The notes: a model not told the origin generated them from the sequence alone. Counted from the first letter of the stretch, positions 6,001 to 52,962 are shown. The stretch is DNA of 64,000 nucleotides from Verrucomicrobiia bacterium (GCA_022072455.1 JAJVHY010000005.1:62001-126000), one strand, 5' to 3'. Made by a program: numbers and translations.

Positions 6001-6139
6001 GTTCAGTCTGACGTGGGACACGACCCAGTTGGCGGCCCAAGGTTTGTTGGTGGTGGTGCCCGAACCATCCACGCTGTTGCTGTTAGTCCTCGGTGGCGTG
6101 GGTTTGGCGGCGTTGATGCGCCGGCGCGCTCGGAGCTGA
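2..6139 (+). CDS. Giant beta-repeat surface protein with PEP-CTERM anchor (5' truncated)
   Basis: The reading frame is open from the first bases of the window, so only the last ~2,045 residues are seen and the start lies upstream. The protein is extremely rich in Gly, Asn, Thr, Ser and Ala. It is built from imperfect strand-turn units with a recurrent (N/Q)-x-L-x-(I/V)-(T/S)-N-G-G core, as in autotransporter-like passenger repeats, which predicts a long right-handed beta-helix. The C terminus is a PEP-CTERM tripartite signal: VPEPST, a Leu/Val/Gly membrane segment and a final RRRARS basic cluster. Families of this kind are exported and processed by an exosortase at the cell surface, and they are common in Verrucomicrobiota. 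The gene ends 11 bases from the convergent fucosidase gene. Ligand and exact role are unknown; adhesion or matrix function is an inference. Confidence 0.85.
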   Translation: MVQVLGTNNFGVVGTNDVRSGITLQAAMSNSLGSGSIIVGNGATLTPTVAWGLGTSTSTINTGGWLAVDAVQGALSNATIQLNGGTLWQRGNIGSLSLTVVDGGAIRILSSSVISNFANAGNANSGGTFTHASLDFTAADTTLTLASIIDGTAGGIRYRFDSVTVTNNATVELARSGNAGFGLTVLFSNVTGVAGKTLSVTNSTGNNATLTFVGNNNTFNGGVEIRAGATVASAMSNALGSATVYVNGGTLQIANQDGLGAAAVVVSNGIAIGNVATVIYGGDGATERSSLVTGSGAVWTNIGTLIIGAGTGQSNKLTVANGGVLLASTALNVGGGAGGNNQLIVDGGTVWATTLRATNTGNQVILNSGTINSPSTFISNNVFTVGDGTGVGVFNTLGGTHNFGSGIIIASNSFLTGTGTILAGGPLGVTLTNGGILSAGLGTTGIGVLTANNLNWLSGGILQVDLQNFGVAGTDYDFLRLTGALTNSGAGLVVNLNTNGLGSAFNPATDYQLLIGSFNTQFGFSAGNFTVNNNFGASGWQVTQIGTNMYLTYFGTAAVTPDFVWGFGSGKWSDGPRWTNGVAPAADGLKLQFGTNTLTQFTATNTSISAVNALVLDGGASAPITNFLVGNALTITGDAAAIVQQNQGAFVISNALVLATNLTVRGNGLGTVTLASNITGTAGQFAKQGAFNLVLRGSNTFVAPVLMDSPGGGTLTLASLYALGANAITVSNGIVFASTAGTSYIVGNGWNDQTVLITGAASTWSNTAVFAIGTNAAVNNAVTIANNGSLFASAINIGNSTTATGNGLIISNGGTVRGGLITVGNNGSTGNYFNVLGGGIASNGAVTVGGNRSGFNRMTVTNATLLSGGAVIIGNGSSNNTAQVLSGGSWNMVGQTLTIGTGAAISNALVVNSGALTNVGATAIGATVGTAGNSLTISNGGLFRSTSVTVSGTNNFYNVGGVGSLSTVSNSTITLNGFGELMTVTNASLRSTVTIVGNGTSSNTVRVLAGSIWDLQGNALNLGGNFAGTGTGNVFVVDGGGIVNGAVVTNIGNTGGASGGAPLVIGGAGGSDFQSLIISNGGALAVTVVGNAVRLGEGRVGNRVIVDNGTFTSVDYLTVGGVGGSNNFLVVTNGGYVRLSTLNVGSLAGIGAASNTVIVAGANTGGAKAIIDLNGTGALQIGGTAVYATNNWVFIRQDGIITNAGGGVVIGNVASAANNGLVVTNGGALFSGAVTVGGSNNAYIIDGGSVGSVVSNGAVTINGNNFMTVTNATVQLGGNLVVGNGGSNAVVNINRDSLVNLQSNFLAIQGGTVTSNNSVTINAGTVTNAQFSMGATGNGVTMRNNSLIITNGGKLFSSGGTIAFNNSTAGAESSSNVVLVTGLGSSWNMNAGSLTIAWDNNAGSSNKLFYNTLRIDDGAVVTNFSTVSGSFMLGRTVGSTSSTKTYSNYLIIANGGQLWTAGNSYVGTTSGGTGTNLANGATVTTGGLWDLGGKVLIIGHTWSGGGYVASNFLSVTDGGVLNNGSLVIGGSGFGGSGAPVAWGNQFLISGASTVTVASLNIGYANIPAAQAIGNSATIGGAGAAPYFSNATITVGFGGPNAWSNSLTATNSTIIGGLVVGSGANSNSATIWSGVNWNALGNNVTVGSGAATGNTVTVNGSVFTNINSLTIGTAATSVNNQLVLTNGAQLFAASVSLGGAVATDNRALVLDGALLEANTLVTGAGAGNTLSNRNATYQFTLASPVITPNGADRIAITDGTISFRAISNADVTNNFGNGALKGITFAGVNTFQLNAASNTTAGQTYTFQQVAGNPSNYVNLAMVNGHTAYRGGNLTIGSTGSMLVSSTTATVTGLFTNQGQTRLVSSAAAFSSGVINAGVFSLQNSTLTGAFTNLATGTLQGDGVVVGEVVSFGTNSPGFSVGTLTITGNLTLASSAVTVMELTGGGTNDQFVVSGLMTYGGQLIVTNSTGFTFAAGQTFQLFDFGSQVGSFSLTNLPDLTAFSLTWDTTQLAAQGLLVVVPEPSTLLLLVLGGVGLAALMRRRARS
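945..5070 (+). repeat. Degenerate strand-turn repeats in the giant surface protein
   Basis: The core L-x-(I/V)-(T/S/A)-N-G-(G/A)-x-(L/V/F) recurs near positions 945, 2416, 2800, 3223, 3380, 3655, 4033, 4343 and 5036. The copies lie at irregular intervals of about 150 to 400 bases, with weaker copies between them. They have diverged in sequence but keep the Asn-Gly-Gly turn, as expected for coils of a beta-solenoid. At DNA level the units are not identical. Confidence 0.6.
6059..6136 (+). other. PEP-CTERM sorting signal
   Basis: The last 26 residues of the surface protein start with PEPST, continue with about 14 hydrophobic residues, and end in the basic tail RRRARS. This is the classic exosortase recognition layout. 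No exosortase (EpsH/XrtA-like) gene is visible in this window. Confidence 0.85.
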
Positions 6140-7439: not shown

Positions 7440-7534
7440 GGTGCGCGGGATTTTCGCGCCGATAATCCGGTTTTTCCGTTGCCGTCGAAATGCTCCATCT
7501 GGCACTATCATTGCAAGCTGGAGGGTTGCAACCA

Positions 7535-9784
7535 ATGAGTCAGACCATCACGCCCGATTATAGTCTTACCGGCGTCAATGCCGCGCTCGCGGTGGAAAAA
7601 GGCCTCGCCGAAGCCGAGTGGTACACCACCCCGATCCCGAAAACGGTCCTGCGCCAGTTTCTCGAACGCCGCGACGGGCCGGCCATTCGCGACACGCTCT
7701 TGCTCATCGCGCTGCTGGTCGGCACCGGTTACGCCACGGTCGCACTCTGGGGGACGTGGTGGGCGGTCATTCCGTATTTGATTTACGCCGTGCTCTACGG
7801 GACGAGTTCGGACTCGCGCTGGCATGAATGCGGCCACGCTACCGCGTTCAAGACCGACTGGATGAACACCGTCGTCTATGAAGTGGCGTCGTTCATGGTC
7901 ATGCGCGAATCTGTCGTTTGGCGCTGGAGCCACACCCGGCATCACAGCGACACCATCATCGTGGGGCGCGATCCCGAAATCCAGATTCCACGACCGCCAG
8001 ATTTGCGTGGGCTGGTGCTGGCGCTGTTCTGCATTGGCGTTTATCGCAAATACTTTCCCAACTTGCTCCGTCATGCGCTCGGAAAAGTCACCGATGCCGA
8101 GCGCACCTTCATCCCGCCCAGCGAATTCCGGAAGGTCGCGCGGAATGCCCGGATTTGTCTCGCGATTTACGCGGCGGTGATCGCGGCGGCCATTGTCTGG
8201 CAGAGTTGGATTCCGATTTTCCTGTTTATCCTGCCGCAGTTTTTCGGGACGTGGCTGATGATTGTTCACAATACGACTCAGCATGCCGGCTTGGCCGAGA
8301 ATGTCCTCGACCACCGGCTCAACTGCCGGACCGTGTACATGAACCCGATCAGCCGGTTCATCTACTGGAACATGAACTACCACGTCGAACACCACATGTT
8401 CCCGCTCGTGCCGTACCACGCGTTGCCCAAATTGCATCAGGCCGTCCAGGCCGACTTCCCGCCGCCGTATCCTTCGATCCTCTCTGCCTGGCGCGAAATC
8501 CTCCCCACAATCCGCCGGCAAGTGAAAGATCCCGGCTACCACATCAAACGCCAGTTGCCGGCACCGCAACAACGGACGACTGATGCGCCCCGCACCTCCT
8601 CCGCCACACTGGATGCCGACGGTTGGATTGAGGTTTGCGCCGACGCTGATCTGGCCAAAGCGGATGTGCTGCGGTTCGACTACGGGCGCAAAACGTTTGC
8701 GCTCGCTCGCGACGAAGCCGGCCAGTTGTTTGCGACCGACGGCATCTGCACCCACGGCAACACGCATTTGGGCAACGGCCTCGTCATCGGCGGCCTGATC
8801 GAATGCCCCAAACACAACGGCCGGTTCAACCTCGCCGACGGCTCACCGGCGCGGGCGCCGGTCTGTCGCGGTTTGGCGACATATCCCCTCGAAAGCCGGC
8901 AAGGCCGATTGTTCCTCAACGTGCTCCGTGCCGGTGGCGTCGGCGCGCGCCAACAAAAAACTTGGCAGTTGCGCGTCGTCAGCAACCGCAGCGTCGCCAC
9001 GTTCATCCGGGAGTTGGTTTTCGAGCCGCTGGAGAAAATCGAGTTCACGCCCGGTGATTACCTGCAATTCGACATCCCGGCATACGACACTATTCGCTTC
9101 CGGGATTTCGACATTCCGGCACCCTACGCCGCCGTCTGGGAAGCCCAACACATCTTTGATCTTGTCGCGCAGAATCCCGCCCCGGGCCGGCGGAACAACT
9201 ACTCACTTGCCGGTAGTCCGCAGACCGAATCCAATCTCCGCTTCAACATCCGCATCGCCACGCCGCCGCCGGGACAAGATTGCCCGCCCGGCGTCGGCTC
9301 CGCCTACATGTTCAACCTCAAACCCGGTGACACCGTTACCGCCATCGGCCCATTCGGCGATTTCCACATCAAACCGACCCAGAAAGAAATGGTCTACATC
9401 GGCGGCGGTTCCGGTATGGCGCCGTTGCGCTCCCACATCGCGCATTTGTTTGAGAGCGCGCCGACGAAACGCCGGGTGAGTTTCTGGTACGGCGCGCGGT
9501 CCCGGCAGGAAATCTTTTACGACGATTATTTCACCGGGTTGGCCGCGAAGTTTTCGAACTTCCATTTCCATCGCGCGTTGTCCGCACCGTTGTCTGAGGA
9601 CAACTGGACCGGCCACCGTGGGTTCATTAACGAAGTGGTGCTGGAACAATATCTGAAATCCCACGCGAATATCCGGGCCGTCGAATTCTATCTCTGCGGC
9701 CCACCGCAGATGATCAAAGCCTGCCTCAAAATGCTCAATCAACTTGGCGTCGCCGACTCCCAAATCGCCTACGACGAATTTTAA
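7535..9784 (+). CDS. Desaturase/hydroxylase-Rieske-NqrF-type reductase fusion (MocDEF-like)
   Basis: The 749-residue protein is a self-contained oxygenase with three modules. Residues ~1-340 form a membrane fatty-acid-desaturase/hydroxylase domain with di-iron His boxes HECGH (97-101), HTRHH (133-137) and HVEHH (283-287), and several hydrophobic segments. Residues ~365-460 form a Rieske [2Fe-2S] domain (CTHGNTHLG, then CPKHNG). Residues ~475-749 closely resemble the FAD/NADH part of NqrF (YSLAGSP for FAD, YIGGGSGMAPLRSH and YLCGPPQM for NADH). The first two modules resemble MocD and MocE, the rhizopine O-demethylase components, so oxidative demethylation or hydroxylation is a reasonable guess. 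The start at 7535 is chosen because GGAGGG lies nine bases upstream; an in-frame upstream ATG lacks such a site. The stop overlaps that of the convergent operon by a few bases. Confidence 0.85.
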   Translation: MSQTITPDYSLTGVNAALAVEKGLAEAEWYTTPIPKTVLRQFLERRDGPAIRDTLLLIALLVGTGYATVALWGTWWAVIPYLIYAVLYGTSSDSRWHECGHATAFKTDWMNTVVYEVASFMVMRESVVWRWSHTRHHSDTIIVGRDPEIQIPRPPDLRGLVLALFCIGVYRKYFPNLLRHALGKVTDAERTFIPPSEFRKVARNARICLAIYAAVIAAAIVWQSWIPIFLFILPQFFGTWLMIVHNTTQHAGLAENVLDHRLNCRTVYMNPISRFIYWNMNYHVEHHMFPLVPYHALPKLHQAVQADFPPPYPSILSAWREILPTIRRQVKDPGYHIKRQLPAPQQRTTDAPRTSSATLDADGWIEVCADADLAKADVLRFDYGRKTFALARDEAGQLFATDGICTHGNTHLGNGLVIGGLIECPKHNGRFNLADGSPARAPVCRGLATYPLESRQGRLFLNVLRAGGVGARQQKTWQLRVVSNRSVATFIRELVFEPLEKIEFTPGDYLQFDIPAYDTIRFRDFDIPAPYAAVWEAQHIFDLVAQNPAPGRRNNYSLAGSPQTESNLRFNIRIATPPPGQDCPPGVGSAYMFNLKPGDTVTAIGPFGDFHIKPTQKEMVYIGGGSGMAPLRSHIAHLFESAPTKRRVSFWYGARSRQEIFYDDYFTGLAAKFSNFHFHRALSAPLSEDNWTGHRGFINEVVLEQYLKSHANIRAVEFYLCGPPQMIKACLKMLNQLGVADSQIAYDEF

Positions 9785-40847: not shown

Positions 40848-41914
40848 GACAACAAAACGCGGATGCCCTTCAAGATGTCCACCGCTCGTTGCAAGACGAT
40901 GTCGCGGACAGGTTCAGACTCGCTTTCTGCGGCGGTGGCTCCGAGCGCCATCGGATTTGCGCCCAACTCGGATTCCGCCTCAAGCGTCAACCCCGGCGAT
41001 TCGATTCGTTCCCCGCGAAACGCGCGCACCAACTCGGCTTCGGAATAACCTTTCTTCTTCACGCGTGGCGCCAGACTCGCTGTCAACGTTACGTTCGTCT
41101 GCAAATTGAAGACCGCCGCATGCTCGGTCTTCGGATCAATCTTGACCATGATATCGGGAATCAGCCCGCCGGGAAACGTCGCCCCCCCGTGCGGGAAGGA
41201 AATTTTCGCTGTGGCCAACCGGAGCACGCGATCACCGGACAGCTGCACATCTTTCCACGCCACCGGCAGACCCGCCGTCGGTCCGCCAATGACAATGCCG
41301 CGCTCCTGTGCACGTAACGCGCCGACCAACACCTCCGCGCTGCCGCGTGTGTGACCATTGACGAGCAACATCAGCGGTGCGCTGCCCAACTCACTGGCCA
41401 GCGTCTGGGGGACTGCTGTGGTGCGGAAGACCTGCGGTTCACCGGTGGATTGTTTTAGCGTGAAAACAACGGTGCCCGGCTGGAGAAACCGGCTTGCGAC
41501 AGTCGCGGCGGCGGAATAATTCGTGCCGTTCGCAAATCGCAGGTCGAGGATGTAGCCGGTTACTTTCGCATCGGCGAATTTCTTCAACTCGGTGTCGAGC
41601 GCCAGTGGAGTTTCCGGCGTCACGTCGGTCAGGCGGATGTAACCGATATCCGGCTGCACCACCTCGACCCGCGCCAGTGGCTCGTCGGTCAAGGTCTTGG
41701 TCGGGATGACCACCGTTGAATTGGAGACCGCTTCCGCCGTGGACAGCAACTTCGCGCCAGCCCCGAGCATCTGCAAGATGCCGGCGGTTGACGCGTCGTT
41801 TAATTTCTTGGCGTCGAGTTCGTCCCGGTCAACATAGTGCTGCTGGAGCGCGTCCACGATCTCGTCACCGTGAACCGCGCCGACCAACAGGAGTAAACTC
41901 AGGATGTATTTCAT
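40838..41914 (-). CDS. S41 (tail-specific protease)-like protein, probably inactive
   Basis: The 358-residue secreted protein has a signal peptide ([16 protein letters not shown]) and an S41-type beta/alpha core, including [21 protein letters not shown] and VIGGPTAG. In active Ctp/Prc enzymes a Ser and a Lys form the dyad. Aligning the conserved Glu194 places Gly191 at the Ser position and Leu216 at the Lys position, so both seem to be missing, although Ser192 is one residue away. No PDZ domain is obvious. It overlaps purD (ATGA) and the fusion gene. It may bind peptides without cutting them. Confidence 0.72.
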
Positions 41915-43143
41915 TTGTATCGCGCCGCAATGTCCCGGCGATAATGCGCCCCGTCGAACTGGATCAGTTTAACTCCGGCATACGCGCGTTCCAGCGCGGC
42001 ACTGATGTTCGCGCCCAACCCGGTCACGCCGAGCACCCGGCCACCGTCTGTGACCAAGCCGGCTGTCGTCTGCTTCGTCCCAGCGTGAAACACCGCGACG
42101 TTAGCCAACTTGCCGGCTTCTTTCAACCCGGCAATCACTTGGCCGCGCGGATAACTACCGGGATAACCGCCGGCTGTCATCACCACACACACCGCCGCTT
42201 CCTTCTTCCAAGTCATCGTGAATTTGTCGAGCGTGCCGTCCGCCGTGGCGAGGCAGGCTTCGACGAGATCGAAATCCATGCGCGGCACCACGACCTGGGT
42301 CTCCGGATCGCCAAACCGGCAATTGAACTCGATAACTTTTGGGCCGGCCGGCGTCAGCATCAACCCGGCATACAACACTCCCCGGTAATCAATTCCTTCC
42401 GCCTGCAAGCCCGCCAGCGTCTTCGTGAAAATCTCCGTCGCGTCCACCGGCACGCCCATCGGCGAATACGCCCCCATCCCGCCGGTATTCGGCCCGGTAT
42501 CGCCATCGCCGACGCGTTTGTGGTCCTGCGCCGGCACCATGATTTTGAAACTCCGGCCATCCACAAATGCCATCACGCTGGCTTCTTCGCCAACGAGACA
42601 TTCTTCGATGACGACCTGCGCACCGGCCTCGCCGAAAACGCGTTTCTCCATGATGTCAGCGATCGCTTGTTCAGCTTCGGCGACGGTTTTGGCGACGATG
42701 ACGCCTTTGCCGGCGGCAAGGCCATCGGCTTTGACAACAATCGGGGCGCCGTTTTTCCGGACATAGGCGCGGGCATCGGCCGGGTTGTTGAAGATGCCGG
42801 CGGGCGCCGTCGGAACACCGTGTTTGAGCATGAAGGTTTTGGAAAAAGCTTTGCTGCCTTCGAGTCGGGCCGCCGCCTTGTTCGGTCCGAAGAGGCGCAA
42901 GCCTTTCGCCTGAAACTGGTCGGCAATACCGGCGCAGAGCGGGACCTCCGGGCCGACGACGGTCAGATCAATCTGATTGGCCGCCGCGAACGCCGGTAAG
43001 TCGGCCGGCGTGACGCATTCGGCGTGGTGGGCGATGCCGGGGTTGCCGGGGGTGCAAAAGAGTTTGGTGACGTGCCGGCTTTGGGCCAGTTTCCACACCA
43101 AGGCATGTTCGCGGCCGCCGCCGCCAATGACCAAGACTTTCAT
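41911..43143 (-). CDS. purD: Phosphoribosylamine-glycine ligase
   Basis: This 410-residue ATP-grasp enzyme begins MKVLVIGGGGREHALVWKL, the standard PurD start. It contains VVGPEVPLCAGI, VVKADGLAAGKGVIVA and the GPNTGGMGAYSP motif. It joins phosphoribosylamine with glycine in the second step of purine synthesis. The glycine could come from the hydroxymethyltransferase domain encoded two genes downstream. The ATG at 43143 is used because upstream residues do not fit. Length matches the family. It heads a three-gene minus-strand operon. Confidence 0.97.
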   Translation of the reverse strand: MKVLVIGGGGREHALVWKLAQSRHVTKLFCTPGNPGIAHHAECVTPADLPAFAAANQIDLTVVGPEVPLCAGIADQFQAKGLRLFGPNKAAARLEGSKAFSKTFMLKHGVPTAPAGIFNNPADARAYVRKNGAPIVVKADGLAAGKGVIVAKTVAEAEQAIADIMEKRVFGEAGAQVVIEECLVGEEASVMAFVDGRSFKIMVPAQDHKRVGDGDTGPNTGGMGAYSPMGVPVDATEIFTKTLAGLQAEGIDYRGVLYAGLMLTPAGPKVIEFNCRFGDPETQVVVPRMDFDLVEACLATADGTLDKFTMTWKKEAAVCVVMTAGGYPGSYPRGQVIAGLKEAGKLANVAVFHAGTKQTTAGLVTDGGRVLGVTGLGANISAALERAYAGVKLIQFDGAHYRRDIAARYK

Positions 43144-43156
43144 AACTCGCGGCGGC

Positions 43157-43186
43157 ACTCTAGGGGACACTGCCGGGAATGGTCAA
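43157..43186 (-). promoter_or_regulatory. Predicted purD promoter
   Basis: TTGACC and TAGAGT with an 18-base spacer lie on the minus strand, 13 bases before the purD ATG. It abuts the divergent ECF sigma promoter region. Confidence 0.5.
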
Positions 43187-43191
43187 AGGAA

Positions 43192-43223
43192 TTGTCGCCG
43201 CCGGTTGTCCAACCCCGTAGAAT
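43192..43223 (+). promoter_or_regulatory. Predicted promoter of the ECF sigma operon
   Basis: TTGTCG is followed after 18-20 bases by (CG)TAGAAT, seven bases before the ATG. No obvious ECF-type AAC/CGTC pair was recognised, so autoregulation is not shown. Confidence 0.35.
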
Positions 43224-43230
43224 CAAACTC

Positions 43231-43755
43231 ATGGTTACTGGGGACGAGGAGGCGGATTGGATCAAGCGGAGCCGCGACGGCGATGCCGCCGCCTTCGAAG
43301 CGCTGGTCGCCAAGTATCAACGCATGATCCACGCCCTCACCTATCGCATGACCGGCTCCATGGCCGATGCCGAAGATTTGGCGCAAGAGACATTTATTCG
43401 TGCCTACCGGCAACTGCCGAGCTACCGGGGAGCTGCGAAGTTTTCCTCGTGGCTGTATCGGATTGGCATTAACGCTTGCCTGAACTGGAAGAAAAGCCGG
43501 AACCGCCGCGAACAGGTCTACGAAGAGTTCACCCAACAAGAGACTCAACCCGACAACACGGATGAGATCACCGCCAAAATCCAGGCCGCGTTATTGCAGT
43601 TGCCGGACAAACAGCGGGCGGCCCTCATCCTGACGGTGTATGAAGAACTGAACCACGCCGAGGCGGCTCGGATCCTTGGTTGTTCGGAGACGACGGTGTC
43701 ATGGCGCATCTTCATGGCCCGCAAGAAACTGAAAGTGTGGCTGCAATGCGAATAA
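43231..43755 (+). CDS. ECF-subfamily RNA polymerase sigma factor
   Basis: The 174-residue protein has sigma region 2 (FEALVAKYQRMIHALTYR, DAEDLAQETFIRAYRQL) and sigma region 4 (HAEAARILGCSETTVSWR), the complete minimal set for an ECF sigma factor. It would direct RNA polymerase to a small regulon, probably including the envelope genes behind it. The ATG at 43231 is preferred since in-frame sequence upstream crosses the purD start. The next gene begins ten bases inside its 3' end. A typical zinc anti-sigma factor is missing; the small membrane protein at 47523 might fill this role. Confidence 0.93.
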   Translation: MVTGDEEADWIKRSRDGDAAAFEALVAKYQRMIHALTYRMTGSMADAEDLAQETFIRAYRQLPSYRGAAKFSSWLYRIGINACLNWKKSRNRREQVYEEFTQQETQPDNTDEITAKIQAALLQLPDKQRAALILTVYEELNHAEAARILGCSETTVSWRIFMARKKLKVWLQCE

Positions 43756-46700
43756 TTTGGTTGCTGGCCTTGCTGATTGCAAGCGCATGTCACGCCGGTA
43801 CGAGTGTCGCGTTCTTGGACGTGTCTGAGGGTTCACTCGCTGGCGAGTCATTAAAGCAGTGGCAGGATTGGCGGGCGTTAGTGGAGGAATGCTTGAGCCA
43901 AAACGCCGGCGTTGAGTTGATCGAACGCGCCCGACTGGATCGAATCACGGAGGAGCTCGGCCTGCGCGCGCTGGGGCAAGCTAGCGGGGAGCAGGCCATT
44001 TTCCAAGGCGGCTGGCTCGGTGCGGAACTACTGATCAGGCCGGTCGTCGGCGGAACGAAGGAAAGCCCGACACTGGCACTCCGACTCGTCAGCGTCCGCC
44101 TTGGTGAAGCGCTCGCCGAATTACCAGTTAAAAGGCCATTGCCGGCGGCGGGCATTTTCTGCCAGACGGAACTAATACCGGCGGTCACGCGAGCCCGCGC
44201 AGCGTTGCAGCGCGCTGCCCAACAAAAGACCATCGCGATCTTGTTCTTTGCAAACCGCACGCGAGAAGGGCGATTGGAATACGTGGGTGAGAAGTTACGG
44301 CGCGATCTCACTCCGGCTTTGTCGCGGACCGGCAAGTTTCATTTGTTGCGGCGCGAGGAAGCGGCGGCGGCGCGCCCGGAGACGGTGTTGGCCGCGACCG
44401 GCTGGCTGCAACCATCCGAACGCTGGCAGGCACAACACGCCGACATCCTGATTTATGGGACTTACACGGCGACACCGGATCCGAACGTCGCGGCCGATGA
44501 ACTGCCGATCCACGTTCAATATTCCATCTATTTTCGCGCCAGGGGCGGCTCCGTCAGCAACGAGTTGACGCTGACGACGGCCACTTGGAGCAACTCGGTG
44601 CAGCAGATCGCGGAGAAGATTTCAACGGACGCGCAGCGGGTGCCAGTCGGCGCGACCAATGCGTTGGCGCTGGCGCGCGTCGAAGCCGCGCGCCTCGTGG
44701 AGGAGGGCAACCGGCTGCTCAAGGCCAAGGCCGATGCGTTTGGGCGGCGCTCGGATATTCCCGAGGAATTCCTTGAAGATGCGCCGACACAAGCGGCGCG
44801 CAATTTCTTGCTGGCGACTTTCCTCGCCCCGGAGCGGGAAGCTCCCTTGCGGCATTTGGTGGCCCTGCAGCCGCACTGGAGTGTTGACCGGATTTCGTTG
44901 GGATTGGAGTACCTGAGCCGGTTTGGAGGTTTGACAAGCCCAGAAGGGCGACACATGTGTTGTCTGCTCTTTTCAGATATTACCGGCAAACTTGCGTTCC
45001 TCGGCCACGGCCTGTCGGAAACTCAGCGGGCGGAGTTTTGCCAACGTCATCAACTGCTATTGGACATTGCCAGAACGGCCTTTCTTCAGATTGTCTCACG
45101 GGTTGGGGATGCGGTTGCGTTGAAGGGAAACTGGGGGGGTGATTACCGCGCGGATTTACGGATCGAAGAAGGGATGGCACGCGACATCGCCCTAACAATT
45201 GCTTCTCTGAGCATTGTCCCGTGTCAGATGGGCGCATGGGAACTCCTCACGCAGACGGCACCGCAGTGGCTGCCCGCGGCGCGGCTGATGGCGTTTCGCG
45301 ATTACGGGCGCACAGCCACTTCGCCGGCGCAAAAGACGGAAGTCCGGCAACAATTGAAATCCTGGCTCGCGCAACGCAACAAGCCGCTGACGGAATCCGA
45401 ATTTCTCCAACTCCGCGAAATCTATCGCATCACGTTTTTGGGAGACGAACGAGCCGATCAGGAGGAAATCGAAGGCTTGCGCCGAGGCGCGGCCGGTGCG
45501 TCAACGGCGTTGCCTCCTGCTTCCTCCGCCACCGTGGTCACAACAACTCCGGCAACCGCAGTGGTTGACACGCCGGAAGTGGCGGCGCTCCGCCAGAAGC
45601 TGAACAAGGTACCGCCGACCGAAGCGGCGAACGTGATTGAGAATGAAATCCGCAAAAAATGGCACGACGCGGCGCCGCTGACCTATTTCCCTCTCTACGC
45701 TCGCGTGGCGGAACGTGCCATGGTAATCGCAACCGTCACGCGTTGGTTGGATGAACAGACGCAACGACAGCATCGTTTCAGCGTGCTTGAGTTTGGGTTG
45801 GTGCAACAAACCTATGAAACTCTTGGCGCGCCGGCTTGGTGGATCAAGCTGCAACGAGAACGACTGCGATTGGGTAAAACTCCGTGGGGCGATTGGCAGG
45901 AGACCACGCTTGGACCGCGAAGCATTGGCACCCAGACCGTGATTCACTACCCGGCGCTGCGCTTACTGATGCCGGCGATTCAGGTTACTCCGCGTGAAGT
46001 GGCGGCGGCAGAAGATTTACCGCTCTCGCCTCGAACGGAATCAGTCTACGGCCTTGCCACGAAAGTGTGGAGCGACACGGCGTCGCAGGCGTTGTTCTCG
46101 CTTGAAGCTCAATTGCAAACACGCCCCTCGGAAACATCCTTCGGCTGTCTTCTCGATTATAATGAGAGCGCGCGACGCTGGCGCAATCTGAGCGACGCGG
46201 CCGGACTTCGACACGCTCCTATCACCGCGATCCTCACACTGGGTCAACAAGTGTTTGCTGGTACGCGGGGTTCCGGGTTGTGTGTTTTTGATCTGCAGGC
46301 TGGCACAGGCCGCATCCTGACGCTGGAGGCTGGACTGCCGTCGCTGTTCGTCGCGGACTTGGCTATTGTCGGCAACCAACTCTGGATTAGTGGTGGCGAG
46401 CAGTGGCCGACACTGGCACGAATTGACTTGTCCACTTGGAAAGTGTTCACGATCCCGCTCCACGATCCGTGGGGAGAAAGCAAAGCGTTGACCCTTTGGC
46501 AAGATCGCCTGTGGTTTGGTTCGCTGCGGACATTGCGCGAAGTTGATCCGCAGTCCAGCCGGCTCGTGGCCCGCCAGCCTTCCAACCCATCCATCCCGCC
46601 GGGAGAACAGCAACACCGTTGGTACGCCTTGGATGAGAACGGACTCTTTGCCGTGAGTCAGAACTTGGCGGTGACTTCATTTGGACGTCCCAACCAGGAT

Positions 46701-47498
46701 TTCTATCGGGACGACCAGAGTCGGTTTTGCCAAGTCTGTTCCATTGCCCACGCCGGCCGGCCGATCATTGGGTCTGGCTTTGGCCATGACTTTTTCCGAT
46801 TTCAGAGCCGGTCCGATAACTGGCGCGATCAAGTCGAGGCCAATATCGCCGAGCTGCAACATTTCCGTTCGGGACAAGGTGCCGTGCCCTGGAAAAAGCA
46901 GCGCTGGGAACGCAAGGAAGACCGGCTGCTCCCTAGAACGCGCGTGCCTTCTCTCTCAACCCTCGTGCCGGACCGGGAATGGGTCTGGGCCTTGTCCGGC
47001 AAGAAGCTGTTTCTGTTTCGCCCCGGGACTCAGACTTGGCACGGCTGCGTCGAACTTCCGCAAGCGGCCAACAGCATCGCGGTCGCCGGCGACACCATCT
47101 GGCTGAGCGGCGACAAATTGCTCACTCTTGATCGGGCCGCCATCCTCCAGCATGCGCCCGCCCACGGTCTCCCGAATCAATTAACGGATGCAGACATTCA
47201 GGAGGCCATCGCCCGACTGCTACTGGGCGACCAAGGCATCCTGTACTTTGCGCTCGGCCAATTTGAACGGGCGGCAGTCTGCCTTGAGAAGGCCGTTGCG
47301 GAAGACATCACGGAGCCCGAGTACTTCCTGACACTATTTTTCATCCAATCACCGTGGGGCTTGAATCAACCCGAAAAGTGGCAACAAACTGGCGACCGAC
47401 TCAGCGAACTCTACCCAAACACTTCGTGGAGCCGCACCGTACAGGATTGGAGGGCGTATGCGACCCAAGTCACCGGTCATTCCAAGGATTTGCCATGA
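43746..47498 (+). CDS. Large exported protein with tandem CsgG-like domains, beta-propeller and TPR-like tail
   Basis: The 1,250-residue protein has a signal peptide (MRIIWLLALLIASACHAG). Two successive CsgG/TolB-N-like domains follow, at ~18-125 (VAFLDVSEG, LIERARLDRITEELGL) and ~160-290 (TIAILFFANRTREG, ADILIYGTY). A long helical middle leads to a beta-propeller at ~830-1140 (repeats such as QQVFAGTRGSGL, QLWISGGEQ, RLWFGSLRT) and a TPR-like segment (~1155-1215, ALGQFERAAVCLEKAV). CsgG-like domains usually build outer-membrane or periplasmic assemblies. The ATG overlaps the sigma gene by ten bases. It is paralogous in design to the 1,070-residue protein at 49750. The function is unknown. 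Confidence 0.72.
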   Translation: MRIIWLLALLIASACHAGTSVAFLDVSEGSLAGESLKQWQDWRALVEECLSQNAGVELIERARLDRITEELGLRALGQASGEQAIFQGGWLGAELLIRPVVGGTKESPTLALRLVSVRLGEALAELPVKRPLPAAGIFCQTELIPAVTRARAALQRAAQQKTIAILFFANRTREGRLEYVGEKLRRDLTPALSRTGKFHLLRREEAAAARPETVLAATGWLQPSERWQAQHADILIYGTYTATPDPNVAADELPIHVQYSIYFRARGGSVSNELTLTTATWSNSVQQIAEKISTDAQRVPVGATNALALARVEAARLVEEGNRLLKAKADAFGRRSDIPEEFLEDAPTQAARNFLLATFLAPEREAPLRHLVALQPHWSVDRISLGLEYLSRFGGLTSPEGRHMCCLLFSDITGKLAFLGHGLSETQRAEFCQRHQLLLDIARTAFLQIVSRVGDAVALKGNWGGDYRADLRIEEGMARDIALTIASLSIVPCQMGAWELLTQTAPQWLPAARLMAFRDYGRTATSPAQKTEVRQQLKSWLAQRNKPLTESEFLQLREIYRITFLGDERADQEEIEGLRRGAAGASTALPPASSATVVTTTPATAVVDTPEVAALRQKLNKVPPTEAANVIENEIRKKWHDAAPLTYFPLYARVAERAMVIATVTRWLDEQTQRQHRFSVLEFGLVQQTYETLGAPAWWIKLQRERLRLGKTPWGDWQETTLGPRSIGTQTVIHYPALRLLMPAIQVTPREVAAAEDLPLSPRTESVYGLATKVWSDTASQALFSLEAQLQTRPSETSFGCLLDYNESARRWRNLSDAAGLRHAPITAILTLGQQVFAGTRGSGLCVFDLQAGTGRILTLEAGLPSLFVADLAIVGNQLWISGGEQWPTLARIDLSTWKVFTIPLHDPWGESKALTLWQDRLWFGSLRTLREVDPQSSRLVARQPSNPSIPPGEQQHRWYALDENGLFAVSQNLAVTSFGRPNQDFYRDDQSRFCQVCSIAHAGRPIIGSGFGHDFFRFQSRSDNWRDQVEANIAELQHFRSGQGAVPWKKQRWERKEDRLLPRTRVPSLSTLVPDREWVWALSGKKLFLFRPGTQTWHGCVELPQAANSIAVAGDTIWLSGDKLLTLDRAAILQHAPAHGLPNQLTDADIQEAIARLLLGDQGILYFALGQFERAAVCLEKAVAEDITEPEYFLTLFFIQSPWGLNQPEKWQQTGDRLSELYPNTSWSRTVQDWRAYATQVTGHSKDLP

Positions 47499-47522
47499 TC
47501 AAGTGTCTTACCGGGTGAAACA

Positions 47523-48041
47523 ATGAAGAGTGACTTGGACAAATTGCTGAAATCAGGTCGCGTGCCGGAACGGTCACTGGGTTACTGGGAGCATTTTCCG
47601 AAGCGCGTAATCCGGCACCTCACCGCAACCGCAACCCGGGACCCGCGCCACTGGGGGGCCTGGGCCATGAGCTTGGCGGGAGCGGGAGTTTTGGCCGGGA
47701 TTTTCTTATTCCTCCCCAGTCGCCCCCCCGCGCCAACGCCAGTAGCGTATGGTCGCTTGTACCGTGAAATCACCGCGCTATTCCCGAATCAAGTCCAAGC
47801 TATCGTCGTGGATGAGCACGGAGTGAAACTTGAGCTTTCCGAAACGGCCAACGTGCCGCGCTCGCAGCCGTTGCTGGTCAACGCGTGCAACCCCGCCGGT
47901 TGCCGACATGTCATCACCTTCAGCGGCCAGCAAGTGAAGATCAACGGCGACACATGGGACGTGCTCGTCAATGGCCAGAACGAAGTCGTCGTCGCCGGTC
48001 GCTCGACGGACCGGTATCAGATCGAGGCGCGAACATTATGA
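47523..48041 (+). CDS. Single-pass membrane protein (candidate anti-sigma factor)
   Basis: The 172-residue protein has a 45-residue cytoplasmic-type N terminus, one transmembrane helix at ~47-65 (AWAMSLAGAGVLAGIFLFL) and an extracytoplasmic domain rich in Val and Asn. Its size and topology match anti-sigma factors that accompany ECF sigma genes, but no zinc HxxxCxxC motif or other known anti-sigma signature is visible. The two Cys in the outer domain (CNPAGC) could form a disulfide. It lies 24 bases after the large exported protein gene and overlaps the next gene by four bases. Anti-sigma function is inference from context. Confidence 0.6.
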   Translation: MKSDLDKLLKSGRVPERSLGYWEHFPKRVIRHLTATATRDPRHWGAWAMSLAGAGVLAGIFLFLPSRPPAPTPVAYGRLYREITALFPNQVQAIVVDEHGVKLELSETANVPRSQPLLVNACNPAGCRHVITFSGQQVKINGDTWDVLVNGQNEVVVAGRSTDRYQIEARTL

Positions 48042-48784
48042 GCCGGCTTGAAGTAATGCTGACATTCCTTCTCGTGGTTCCGGTCTTTGCTCAACTGGAA
48101 ATCGTCCCGGACGATCAACCGCAGACCGTGTTCGCCGGCAAGCCGCAGACTGTGCGGTTGGTGATTCACAACAAAGGCGACAAACAATTTGATGCAGACG
48201 TGACGACGCGATTGTTTCAAACCACGGCAGCGACAGCCGCGCCGGTTGGCGACGCGCAACCGTGGAAAACTGTCCACGTGTTACCGGGCCAGACCGTCAT
48301 CGAAACAGCCACATTCAAGTTCCCGGCGGTGCGGGCCGCGACGCGCTTCCTCGTGCAGTGGGACGAGCTTGGTCGCACGCCGGTCGTTGTTTATCCTGAC
48401 GATTTACTCAAGGGCCTGAGCAAGCTGGCCGGCGACAATCCCGTCGCGGTGTTCGATCCCGAAAACAAACTCAAGCCGGTCTTGAAACAGGCCGGCGTGA
48501 AGTACGCCGATTTTGAAATCGAAACGGAAGATTGCCGGCTCGCGCTGGTGTGGTCGGCGCGTTTGCCGGAAAACGTTTCGTTGCGCATGAAGAACGGCAT
48601 GGGGGCGGTCTGGATTCGCTCCACGAAATCACCGGTTGCCTTTGCCGTCCGGCGGGATGCCGGCATCCTCGTTACCGTCCCGCCTTCCGTGCTGACGGCG
48701 TTGACAGATTCACCGCAGTCGCAAGCCAACTTGCTCCGGTTCGCCGAACTGGCGTTACAATTACCGGACATCAATCAACCCTGA
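48038..48784 (+). CDS. Secreted hypothetical protein
   Basis: The family of this 248-residue protein is not recognised. The N terminus MSRLEVMLTFLLVVPVFA is a signal peptide. The mature part has a beta-sandwich-like first half (VFAGKPQTVRLVIHNKGDKQF, typical of Ig-like or DUF11-like folds) and a mixed second half. The ATG overlaps the preceding stop (ATGA). Its place inside the sigma/CsgG operon suggests a periplasmic partner of the CsgG-like proteins. Confidence 0.65.
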   Translation: MSRLEVMLTFLLVVPVFAQLEIVPDDQPQTVFAGKPQTVRLVIHNKGDKQFDADVTTRLFQTTAATAAPVGDAQPWKTVHVLPGQTVIETATFKFPAVRAATRFLVQWDELGRTPVVVYPDDLLKGLSKLAGDNPVAVFDPENKLKPVLKQAGVKYADFEIETEDCRLALVWSARLPENVSLRMKNGMGAVWIRSTKSPVAFAVRRDAGILVTVPPSVLTALTDSPQSQANLLRFAELALQLPDINQP

Positions 48785-48797
48785 AGAAAGGAACTCC

Positions 48798-49730
48798 ATG
48801 AAACTCGCCCTCGCTGCCTTGATTGCCTTTACCCTCCCCGCCTTTGCGGCTGACCCGCCGGCGCAGATCCTGTCGGTGGCCGTCTTCGATTTCGAATCGA
48901 AGGACGAAGCCATCCGTGACCTCGGCCCCAAAGTCGCCAGTCTGATCAACGTCAGACTCTCCGTCGACCCGAACCTGATTACCGTCGAGCGCGCGGAATT
49001 GGAGAAGCTGCTCAGCGAACAGGAACTCGGTTTATCCGGCACAGTCAACCCGGAGACCGCCGCCAAGGTCGGCCATCTCACCGGCGCTAAAATATTCGTG
49101 ACCGGGCGCGTGTTCACCGTCGGCAAGGAGACGATGGTGGTCGCGAAAGTCATCGGCACCGAGACCAGCCGGGTCTACGGCGAAGTCGTGCGTGGAGCGG
49201 CCGGGGGCGGTGCGATTGCCGACATGGCGGCGGAGATGGCCATGCGGCTCGCCAAGCTCATCCGAACCAAAGGCGACACGCTCGTCGCCAAGGTGGAAAA
49301 GGTCGACGATCGTATGGCCCGTTTGACGAAACAATATGAAGGAAAAAAATTCCCGGTCGTGTCCGTCTCGATCCCCGAGCGCCACATCGGTTCGCCGACC
49401 ATTGACCCCGCCGGTCAGACCGAAGTCAGCTTCATCCTCGAAAAACTTGGGGCGACCGTGCTCGACTCGAAAGACGCCGCTGGCAAGCGCGATGTCGAGA
49501 TTACCGGCGAAGCCTTCAGTGAATTCGGGATGCGCAAGGGCAACTTGGTGAGTTGCAAAGCCCGAGTGGAGTTGAAAGCCATCGACAACGCCACCGGCCG
49601 CGTGATCTTCATTGACCGTGAGACGACGATTGCCGTGGACCTGAGCGAACACCTCGCCGGTAAGACTGCCATTCAGCAAGCCGCCGCGAAACTCACAGAG
49701 CGGATGTTGCCGAAGCTGGTGGTCAAGTAA
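48798..49730 (+). CDS. CsgG-family secreted protein
   Basis: The 310-residue protein has a signal peptide (MKLALAALIAFTLPAFAA) and a CsgG/FlgT-like domain. It starts VAVFDFESK, continues LITVERAELEKLLSEQELGLSG and GAKIFVTGRVF, and later repeats a similar beta-alpha pattern (~190-305). A good Shine-Dalgarno (GAAAGGA) precedes the ATG. The core motif (E/A)R-x-E-(L/I)-x-x-L-L-x-E-Q is shared with both large proteins of the operon, so the three belong together. The family includes curli-secretion channel CsgG and periplasmic activators such as LpoB. No lipobox is seen, so it may be soluble in the periplasm. Confidence 0.8.
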   Translation: MKLALAALIAFTLPAFAADPPAQILSVAVFDFESKDEAIRDLGPKVASLINVRLSVDPNLITVERAELEKLLSEQELGLSGTVNPETAAKVGHLTGAKIFVTGRVFTVGKETMVVAKVIGTETSRVYGEVVRGAAGGGAIADMAAEMAMRLAKLIRTKGDTLVAKVEKVDDRMARLTKQYEGKKFPVVSVSIPERHIGSPTIDPAGQTEVSFILEKLGATVLDSKDAAGKRDVEITGEAFSEFGMRKGNLVSCKARVELKAIDNATGRVIFIDRETTIAVDLSEHLAGKTAIQQAAAKLTERMLPKLVVK

Positions 49731-49749
49731 GCCGAATGGGTTTGCACTG

Positions 49750-52700
49750 ATGAAATCAGCGATCCGAACCGGATTGGTACTTGTTGTCTGGCTGGTTGGG
49801 TTTGGCATGTCGGCGGTGTCGGCTGAGAAAATGAACACCACACGGCTGGCCATCGTCGATGTCGGGGCAAAGGAGCGCGTGCCACCCATATTCCAAGATT
49901 TACTGGTGGCCACGTTTGCCAAGCAAGCAGAGGTCGCCTTGCTGGCGCGCACGGAAATCAATCGGCTGCTTCGCGAGCAGGCGTTCGGACTTTCGTTGGG
50001 CGGTAACGACGCTGTGGCAGCCGGCCGGGTCTGGTCCGCCGACGTGTTTTTGATGTTGGAGTTAACAACGCGGACGAACGGGATTGATCAGTTGCGTGTC
50101 CGCTTGGTGGAAACGCGGCTGGGGGTAAAGCTCTGGGATGCTGTGTTCACTTTTTCACGGCAGCCTGACACGTTTCTGAAGCAAGCTGAGGCGCTGGCGC
50201 AGCACACCAGCCGCAAGCTGGCCTTTGGAGACATACGTCAGGTGACGCCAATCGCTGTGACGGCGTTTCGGAGTGAGGAATTGTCGCGGCGGTGGGATTG
50301 GCTGGCGGACGCCTTGGCCGACGGAGTGCAACTGCAGTTGAATGGGCTGCCGGGACTCGTCGTGCTTGAACGTGACCGGACGCAGCCGTTGCGAGAAGAG
50401 CGGGCGTTGACGGCTGACTTGCCGGAAGCATTGCGCGCCGCGGCGTTGTTGGTGGACGGTTCCGTCAAACTGGATCGCGCCAAAGGCACGGATCGGGTGG
50501 AGTTGCGCCTGCGATTGCGGCGTAACGTTTTCGTCATTGGTCAGACGAATGTGACCGGGTCGGTAACCGAACTTGGCGGGTTGTGCCAAGTCGCCGTCCA
50601 AGCGATCGCTGGACAGGCCGGAATCACCAAGGACATCAGCCCGATGGCCCGGGCGTCGGAAGCGGAGATGTTGGGGGCCGAAGCCGAGGTGGCGCTGATG
50701 TTGCGAGAACCGAGCCGCGCTGTGCCATTGGCCCAGGCCGCCTGCGCGCTGCAACCTGAGCAGTGGCATCACGCACTCCTGTTGCTGCGTTGTCTCGGCC
50801 AGAGTCTGCTGCAACGGCAAAGTGCTGACACGGATCACGCGGTGGCATTGGCGCGGCAGGGATTCGTGTTAGCGGAGCGATTCCTCGACCATCCCCCGGC
50901 TGGACAAGCGCAACGTGGCTACTACGGTTCGGAAACCGAGCATGAGATCAACGAGTTTCTTGGCGGGTTGCTTGCCCGCTTCGATTACCGAGTCATTGAA
51001 GACGGAATGACCAACTCAGATGGCAACATGCGCGAGGAGTATTTGGGGGTCGAGAAGGAATTTTGGCGTGTGTTTTGGCGCTGTGGTGAGGTCTTTCGTG
51101 AACGCGGCTCGCCGGCCATCGCCAACTATCTCCAACGGGGTCGCGAAGCCGGCAAGATGTGCCGGACCTCGTCCAATGCGGTTGCGCTGAGTCGGATGGT
51201 GTTGGTTGAATCGGCACGACTCTGTCGGCAGGACATGAGTCGCGTGGCGGGTTGGAGTCTATTACCGGATTTTCTCAACAGTCGGTTTGCGTGCGACGAA
51301 ACGGCCCGGCAACCTTTCGCGGCTCTCTACGAGCAGTTAACTAAGTCACCGGATTTTCTCGTGCAAGCGGTCGGCGAGTTTGGCGCTGGTGAAATGGCCA
51401 GCGCGGCCAACTGCCCCAAACTACCGCCCCAGCCAGACCGCGCCCGCGAACATTTCCTGCGGTTTGCTCAACTGCTGGCGGACAATTTTGTGGGCCACTA
51501 TGAACAAAAGTCGAAAGGTCGCAACATCGTCGAGGACCTGGCCGACCAAGCCCGGTATTATACGTTTGGTCAAACCCCTAAAGACGATGCGCGCGGGAAA
51601 CTGGAATATTATCGGCGATTGACTGAGGCGGCGTTGAAGACCGGCGATGCCAAGGTGCTCGCGAACTGGCGATCAGTGGTGGCCAGGTATGCGGCGCAGT
51701 GCGAACTCGCTGGCGAATTGTCAGCAGCAATCCGAACATGGGAGCGGGTGTTGGCCATAACCGGCCAGTGGGACTTGGAGGCAAATGCCAAGCTGGCGGA
51801 GCTGCGGAAGCGCCAGCCGATTCCGACAGCCACAACCACTGCGAAAATGTTGCCCTACCGGGCGGAGCAACTCTTGAGGGCTGACCAGGCACTGGCTAAA
51901 TTGCCGGGCGGAACCGCCCCCACGCCTGATCTGCATTTCCGGCGGCTGATCCGCCACGATGGTTGGACAGCCATCGTCTACTCGCGTGGGATTGGCAAAG
52001 GGGAACGCTATGGCGTGTTGCACCTGAATCCGTCCTTGTTGCAACCAGTTAATTTCAATGAATCAACAATTGCGGTATCGGCCCCATTCGAGTGGGGGAG
52101 TGATCAGGAAAAACTGCTTGGCTATGACCCTGAGATAGCGGTAGTGGGGAAGGAAGTGTTCTTGGGGCTGCCCGGCGGGGGGATAGTCAACCTCCGGCCG
52201 AACGGACGGGCGCGCTGGTGGACTGAAGAAACGGGATTGGCGGCGCAATACATTCGGAGCCTCGACGCGCTTGATGGTAAATTGTACGCGGCGGTTGGGC
52301 GGCTCTATGAAAATAATGGTCTGATGGTGATCGACCCGTCATCCGGCGCGTCGAAGATCTTGTATTCAACGCGTTCCAATATTGGGACAAACATCTTGGA
52401 TGGTCGACAGATTAAGTCCCTCGCTGCCATCCCAGAGAAGCACGTGCTTCTATTGAATGTTGGACGCGATAAGGACGCGCGCAACAATGCAAAGATCGTG
52501 GCTTGGGAGCCACAGAAAGATACTATTCGTGATGTGGCGGGTTTGCCGGACAGCATTTCTTACATCGACAGTGTTCGGCTGCGCCGGATAGACGACCGGA
52601 TCCTCCTCACCTCAGCTTGGGCGGGTTACCAGTTCGATCTGCGCCAAGGCGGCCCCATTCGCGCATTGCCGGTATGGGCGTTCGCGCCACGAAACACCTC

Positions 52701-52962
52701 CAAGATTAAACGCGTCAGTCCATTTGACAATTTGCGCCGACTTGCTCCGGTTGGGACTGATCTGTTTTGCACCCAAGGCCGAGAACTGCTGCATTTCCAT
52801 GAGGGCACGAACGAGCCGCAGCTCATCTTGAAGGAATGCTTCCCCGCGTCGGTTGCCGACCGAATTGTCATACGCGATCTCGTTTCAACCACCAACGGCT
52901 TGGTGTTGCTCGCAGAAGACGCTCTTTATCTCTTGCCGAGCGTTAGACCACCACAGCGGTGA
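49750..52962 (+). CDS. Second large exported CsgG-like/beta-propeller protein
   Basis: The 1,070-residue protein has a signal peptide (cleavage probably after VSA at ~25). Two CsgG/TolB-N-like domains follow: ~30-140 (RLAIVDVGAK, LLARTEINRLLREQAFGL, ADVFLMLEL) and ~175-295 (GLVVLERDRTQPL). A helical TPR-like middle (~300-670) leads to a propeller-like C terminus with repeated blades (KEVFLGLPGGG, GKLYAAVGRLY, DDRILLTSAWAG). The order parallels the protein at 43746 although sequence similarity is low. It closes the operon and is followed by a hairpin. Outer-membrane or periplasmic scaffolding is the most likely general role; no enzyme motif was found. Confidence 0.7.
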   Translation: MKSAIRTGLVLVVWLVGFGMSAVSAEKMNTTRLAIVDVGAKERVPPIFQDLLVATFAKQAEVALLARTEINRLLREQAFGLSLGGNDAVAAGRVWSADVFLMLELTTRTNGIDQLRVRLVETRLGVKLWDAVFTFSRQPDTFLKQAEALAQHTSRKLAFGDIRQVTPIAVTAFRSEELSRRWDWLADALADGVQLQLNGLPGLVVLERDRTQPLREERALTADLPEALRAAALLVDGSVKLDRAKGTDRVELRLRLRRNVFVIGQTNVTGSVTELGGLCQVAVQAIAGQAGITKDISPMARASEAEMLGAEAEVALMLREPSRAVPLAQAACALQPEQWHHALLLLRCLGQSLLQRQSADTDHAVALARQGFVLAERFLDHPPAGQAQRGYYGSETEHEINEFLGGLLARFDYRVIEDGMTNSDGNMREEYLGVEKEFWRVFWRCGEVFRERGSPAIANYLQRGREAGKMCRTSSNAVALSRMVLVESARLCRQDMSRVAGWSLLPDFLNSRFACDETARQPFAALYEQLTKSPDFLVQAVGEFGAGEMASAANCPKLPPQPDRAREHFLRFAQLLADNFVGHYEQKSKGRNIVEDLADQARYYTFGQTPKDDARGKLEYYRRLTEAALKTGDAKVLANWRSVVARYAAQCELAGELSAAIRTWERVLAITGQWDLEANAKLAELRKRQPIPTATTTAKMLPYRAEQLLRADQALAKLPGGTAPTPDLHFRRLIRHDGWTAIVYSRGIGKGERYGVLHLNPSLLQPVNFNESTIAVSAPFEWGSDQEKLLGYDPEIAVVGKEVFLGLPGGGIVNLRPNGRARWWTEETGLAAQYIRSLDALDGKLYAAVGRLYENNGLMVIDPSSGASKILYSTRSNIGTNILDGRQIKSLAAIPEKHVLLLNVGRDKDARNNAKIVAWEPQKDTIRDVAGLPDSISYIDSVRLRRIDDRILLTSAWAGYQFDLRQGGPIRALPVWAFAPRNTSKIKRVSPFDNLRRLAPVGTDLFCTQGRELLHFHEGTNEPQLILKECFPASVADRIVIRDLVSTTNGLVLLAEDALYLLPSVRPPQR

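Follow-up and report, generated by a model that had tools for sequence, protein, structure and literature searches.

What is built by an operon that places three exported proteins with CsgG-like domains, two of them more than a thousand residues long, behind a sigma factor of their own? The question is raised by six same-strand genes at positions 43231-52962 of a 64,000-nucleotide stretch, here called the window, from a Verrucomicrobiia bacterium (GCA_022072455.1 JAJVHY010000005.1:62001-126000). They encode, in order, an extracytoplasmic function (ECF) sigma factor, large protein A, a one-helix membrane protein, a secreted protein, a small CsgG-like protein and large protein B (Table 1). An earlier note on this DNA, which gave these six genes and their coordinates correctly, had proposed an envelope-stress or secretion assembly, a plausible suggestion. 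The source genome comprises 4.8 Mb in 36 contigs and is 95.6% complete, and its named relatives are Verrucomicrobiota. The reading that our analysis favours, with a probability of roughly one half, is an ECF sigma/anti-sigma regulon that activates itself and whose products build a scaffold in the periplasm, probably on the inner side of the outer membrane. Across relatives the operon is a conserved unit behind a conserved promoter, in which duplicated CsgG-type domains are combined with variable display modules.

Searches of named genomes with the small CsgG-like protein yielded 40 loci, nearly all labelled Verrucomicrobiota or one of its subgroups; locus L032 is labelled Proteobacteria and L055 "bacterium", both being metagenome-assembled genomes, and L050 is Geminisphaera colitermitum TAV2, which carries the gene set. 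The recurrent order is sigma factor, membrane protein, secreted protein and small CsgG-like protein, with zero to three large proteins before or after them. Counted over 39 loci, many of them on truncated contigs, the sigma factor and the membrane protein were each found in 29, the secreted protein in 37 and a large protein in 33, and a sample of 20 genomes from across the phylum gave a sigma factor in 13 and a large protein in 17. By chance, a same-strand sigma gene would be expected within 12 kb of only a few per cent of genes (13 ECF homologues per 4.8 Mb). Moreover, the sigma factor, membrane protein, secreted protein and small CsgG-like protein have diverged together, with correlations of r 0.79-0.89 that none of 999 permutations reached (r=0.87 for sigma factor and membrane protein). 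The earlier note had allowed that its proposal would fall if relatives did not keep the gene order; that order recurs among these loci. In the phylum at large, 80 of the 388 genomes searched had a match to the small protein at E 1e-10, and the weaker of these may be general CsgG-domain proteins only. Antisense open reading frames that also clustered across loci were dismissed as artefacts of long reverse-strand frames.

The sigma factor contains regions 2 and 4 and lacks region 3 according to Pfam, and among the 13 ECF homologues of its own genome it was the best match by 120 bits. The motif TCAAAGGAWT-N13-YGTC, which in some lineages reads CCAAGGAT, precedes the sigma gene in 26 of 28 related loci. 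Its internal spacing is nearly fixed (CAAAGGA-N16-GTC) and it lies mostly 45-50 nt from the sigma start codon; a related regular expression matched 25 of the 28 loci, compared with a mean of 0.08 after shuffling. The copy preceding the operon is the sole exact one in the window. This conserved ECF-type promoter, a prediction from sequence, supports the earlier claim that the operon is under a dedicated sigma factor. A self-directed promoter with AAGGA at -35 and GTC at -10, and a sigma gene beside that of a one-helix protein, are features of ECF sigma/membrane anti-sigma systems, from which the present one differs in the very short cytoplasmic segment of the membrane protein, in its matching no known anti-sigma family, and in a regulon made up mainly of CsgG-domain proteins.

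The one-helix membrane protein was present as previously noted, and its role can now be corrected to that of, most likely, the anti-sigma factor. Its N-terminal segment, short and conserved, is followed by one hydrophobic helix and then by a periplasmic beta domain with the motif CNPAGC; the topology of the protein (cytoplasmic N-terminus, one transmembrane helix) is predicted by hydropathy only. In almost every other locus in which the two genes were detected, its gene lies directly 3' of the sigma gene; in the window and its closest relative, large protein A is interposed. A C-x4-C pair in the periplasmic domain, present in 16 of 26 aligned members, is possibly a redox or metal site. A sister protein, encoded beside a sister sigma factor, keeps the N-terminal segment and the helix, and the periplasmic domain is absent from it.

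A regulon scan of 12 relatives placed the promoter motif before the sigma gene and also before the secreted protein gene in three genomes and, in two, before genes for large CsgG-domain proteins unlinked to the operon (G442:C69; G443:C435 and C225); 8 of the 29 hits in these relatives appeared to be chance matches. In another genome the motif precedes a small CsgG-like gene that has no adjacent sigma gene. In two of the 12 genomes the same promoter stands at clusters headed by the sister ECF sigma factor and a short anti-sigma-like protein, followed by genes for a type II secretion system ATPase (T2SSE), T2SSF and pseudopilin-like proteins (L099:2314-7890, G435:C57, where the motif is present twice; L101:763-6150, G442:C31). 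These clusters, together with nearest folds that include ring-forming accessory proteins of the outer membrane (see below), speak for an accessory role in secretion or appendage assembly: CsgG-domain rings or a cap would support an outer-membrane pore or pseudopilus, in the manner of FlgT/FlgO, PelC and GNA1162, and the sigma factor would couple their synthesis to assembly of the machine. However, the genes conserved beside the operon include none for a secretin, a pilin or a pore, the sister cluster was found in 2 of 12 genomes only, and eight further sigma genes of the source genome, inspected as candidate parts of the system, were rejected, their surroundings being unrelated. We consider such an accessory role possible but unlikely.

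What the exported proteins might assemble into depends on their domains. The common motif reported by the earlier note for the three CsgG-like proteins, (E/A)R-x-x-(L/I)-x-x-(L/I)-x-x-E-x-x-(L/F), occurs exactly three times in a six-frame translation of the whole window (43923, 48987 and 49945), once per protein. It is the CsgG signature, aligning with 'LERQGLQNLLNER' of E. coli CsgG, and in its strict form it is confined to the first domain of each large protein. Pfam CsgG (cut-off 20.8 bits) was matched by the small protein at 46.3 bits (4.2e-12), covering profile positions 32-100 of 210 only, and by all 46 aligned small proteins. The AlphaFold2 model of the small protein, built with 46 homologues (predicted local distance difference test score, pLDDT, 90.3), consists of two tandem alpha-beta domains; the earlier note, which had given two such domains to each large protein, is corrected in that the small protein also has two. 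Foldseek comparison of this model with the PDB returned CsgG in its pre-pore form, LpoB, PelC, FlgT, LptE, TolB and GNA1162.

The uniform Pfam match could suggest true curli-like export, with the small protein as a CsgG channel and the large proteins as its substrates or plugs, and the small protein does have in common with that channel (PF03783) both the fold of the N-terminal domain and the signature ER-x2-L-x5-E. It has two such domains in tandem, however, and a simple regular expression found a lipobox-like sequence in 0 of 70 small-family members. The high-confidence model shows no transmembrane hairpins, the connections in domain 1 being short and the strands of domain 2 those of an ordinary sheet, and a search of the genome, which is 95.6% complete, gave no match at E<=1 for CsgE or CsgF (PF10614, PF10627). 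Because lipobox, hairpins and detectable CsgE/CsgF are all wanting, the small protein is not a curli channel, and curli-like export, largely refuted, is the least credible of the readings weighed here. The description as CsgG-like needs the correction that these proteins are not CsgG channels. By their models the domains belong to the LpoB/PelC type and form no barrel. With LpoB, PelC, GNA1162 and FlgT they share an alpha-beta fold free of membrane hairpins, and FlgT likewise has several such domains; the proteins described here differ in having no close sequence match to these families, in not being lipoproteins, in their control by a sigma factor and, for the large ones, in fusion to a solenoid and a propeller. 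CsgG, PelC and FlgT are known to assemble into rings at the outer membrane. Two loci (L026:4416-10861 and L028:7043-10852) contain six and four tandem small CsgG-like paralogues in one operon, with no large protein in view, and perhaps encode a hetero-oligomeric assembly.

Single-protein Pfam scans gave no CsgG match for large protein B and, for large protein A, 16.7 bits over the second domain, below threshold, as were its TolB_N and TPR matches. In the AlphaFold2 model of large protein B, the N-terminal domain pair had pLDDT values mostly of 70-90 over residues 30-300 and was matched by Foldseek to GNA1162, TolB-N, LpoB and PelC, each with probability 1.0, the periplasmic domain of CadC being a weak match. 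Large protein A matched the two-domain N-terminal profile of the large family at E 2e-12, and hhalign related the small to the large family at E 5.7e-15. The tandem CsgG/TolB-N-type domains that had been proposed for both large proteins are thus backed by a model for one and a profile for the other, and the lack of such a fold, which the earlier note had named as fatal to its view, was not what we found.

The overall domain order is that of TolB in the Tol-Pal system, which likewise has a beta-propeller after an N-terminal domain of this fold, and no TolB_N match exceeded the curated cut-off (22.4 bits) anywhere in the genome, the best being large protein A itself at 17.8 bits. The large proteins might accordingly stand in for TolB when the outer membrane constricts. 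They differ from TolB in that their N-terminal domain is doubled, a long helical part is present and the propeller is of the Reg_prop type; the six-bladed propeller of TolB was not detected, and the NCBIfam TolB model touches the N-terminal part only, far below its cut-off. Moreover, the patchy distribution among the 388 genomes ill fits a core division function, and replacement of TolB is in our judgement very unlikely.

The C-terminal regions of large proteins A and B recur throughout the large family. Profiles of these regions matched the Reg_prop propeller sensor 4A2L at 6.9e-32 (led by large protein A) and 2.9e-18 (led by large protein B), the two not being independent, with three sequences in common; Pfam Reg_prop was matched by 8 of 10 members of the first. 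Family profiles were needed for this, the propeller being undetected in single-protein Pfam scans of large protein B and of the C-terminal region of large protein A. The AlphaFold2 model of large protein B is unreliable past about residue 480, with pLDDT mostly below 50 in the propeller region, and offers no usable propeller. The propeller parts noted earlier are consequently borne out at the family level, through profile homology rather than a confident model. In other large proteins, EF-hand, TPR, ankyrin or PA14 modules are found, and exported Sel1-repeat proteins are encoded inside or adjoining several loci. An unlinked large CsgG-domain protein with the promoter motif upstream ends in a long ankyrin array (L100:1223-5635), and at L071 (G443:C103) an exported ankyrin protein lies behind the promoter motif of the operon.

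The propellers are homologous, by profile, to sensor domains of hybrid two-component systems (4A2L, 3V9F), from which the large proteins differ in having no kinase and in attaching the propeller to exported CsgG-domain proteins. This homology, the differing C-terminal modules of family members (propeller, EF-hand, ankyrin, PA14, TPR) and the weak structural match to the periplasmic domain of CadC would be in keeping with a sensory array, in which the large proteins are periplasmic receptors reporting to the anti-sigma factor and the operon serves chiefly for sensing, through input modules that vary. Yet the large proteins sit behind the same promoter as outputs, unlinked copies included, and four loci (L024, L026, L028 and L036) have the sigma factor and the membrane protein together with small CsgG-like proteins alone, no large protein being in view. 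A sensory array thus appears distinctly unlikely.

Under the sigma/anti-sigma regulon that we favour, the short cytoplasmic segment of the membrane protein would tether the sigma factor to the inner membrane, and the periplasmic domain of the same protein, often with the C-x4-C pair, would sense an envelope signal. Release of the sigma factor would switch on the operon, and the exported proteins would oligomerise through their ring-type domains, offering their clients surfaces of the propeller, ankyrin, TPR or Sel1 type, either for envelope maintenance or in support of a secretion or pilus-like machine. Three observations weigh against this reading. The 26 aligned membrane proteins match no known anti-sigma family and no PDB entry. 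In the source genome, only the promoter copy of the operon looks functional; five other exact hits precede no related gene and were rejected as regulon members, being taken as chance or coding matches. Finally, the exact promoter is absent in more distant members of the phylum: a stricter pattern found matches in only 10 of 43 genomes, several by chance, and the motif therefore belongs to the nearer relatives.

A wider proposal is offered tentatively, as a possibility with the odds against it: the operon may represent an undescribed, phylum-wide envelope machine, with hetero-oligomeric periplasmic rings of tandem CsgG-type domains under ECF sigma/anti-sigma control, each large subunit bearing a propeller, ankyrin or other repeat module that can be exchanged, and cross-wiring by a common promoter to a type II secretion-like apparatus. 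In those parts of the open literature that our search reached, we found no earlier account of a verrucomicrobial operon that joins CsgG genes to an ECF sigma factor and, apart from its recognisable domains, the operon fits no described system found there. About one fifth of the sampled Verrucomicrobiota genomes match the small CsgG-domain protein, and the surrounding operon recurs across the phylum. If the favoured reading is true, a sigma regulon would be defined for a major soil and water phylum, with a family-specific promoter by which it can be traced in nearer relatives, and the CsgG/TolB fold would have a new use, as a doubled base for interchangeable display modules and not as a pore. 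Concrete tests are possible in the isolate Geminisphaera colitermitum TAV2.

Table 1. Features of the operon and its flanks, in window coordinates
Feature	Position	Strand	Basis and layout
purD-like gene, upstream flank	41911-43170	-	divergent
ECF-type promoter (predicted)	43183-43209	+	-35 TCAAAGGAAT, -10 TGTC (TCAAAGGAATTGTCGCCGCCGGTTGTC); ends 21 nt before sigma start codon
ECF sigma factor, 174 aa	43231-43755	+	Pfam Sigma70_r2 7.6e-21, Sigma70_r4_2 1.3e-15
Large exported protein A, 1250 aa	43746-47498	+	two-domain N-terminal profile of large family, C-terminal profile against 4A2L; signal peptide, two CsgG-type domains ~20-290, helical part, Reg_prop-type propeller region ~800-1150, TPR-like C-terminal part
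One-helix membrane protein, 172 aa, probable anti-sigma factor	47523-48041	+	position directly after sigma in most other loci, conserved N-terminal motif, co-divergence with sigma
Secreted protein, 248 aa	48038-48784	+	neighbour of small CsgG-like gene in 37/39 loci
Small exported protein, two CsgG/LpoB/PelC-type domains, 310 aa	48798-49730	+	Pfam CsgG 4.2e-12; AlphaFold2; Foldseek
Large exported protein B, 1070 aa	49750-52962	+	AlphaFold2 (N-terminal part), Foldseek, hhalign, C-terminal profile against 4A2L; signal peptide, CsgG-type domain 1 ~30-160, domain 2 ~165-290, helical solenoid ~300-716, beta-rich Reg_prop-type propeller region ~725-1065
Downstream flank, 239 aa	53023-53742	-	convergent; likely signal peptide; no Pfam match

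The six genes form one tight operon, with successive intergenic gaps of -10, +24, -4, +13 and +19 bp; of the "several" overlaps mentioned in the earlier note there are two. By inspection, N-terminal export signals are present in all products but the sigma factor and the membrane protein. The secreted protein gave no significant Pfam or PDB match and was assigned to no known family; we would guess from its sequence at an Ig-like N-terminal part followed by a second part. A role in anti-phage defence was rejected, as a PADLOC scan gave no match for any of the six proteins, and so was a plasmid or phage origin, the small protein being unmatched in plasmid and phage records. Elsewhere in the window, a 2042-codon open frame (11-6139, plus strand) had no Pfam match at 1e-5, and a single 764-residue protein (7490-9784, plus strand) fuses a fatty acid desaturase, a Rieske [2Fe-2S] domain and an NAD-binding reductase domain.

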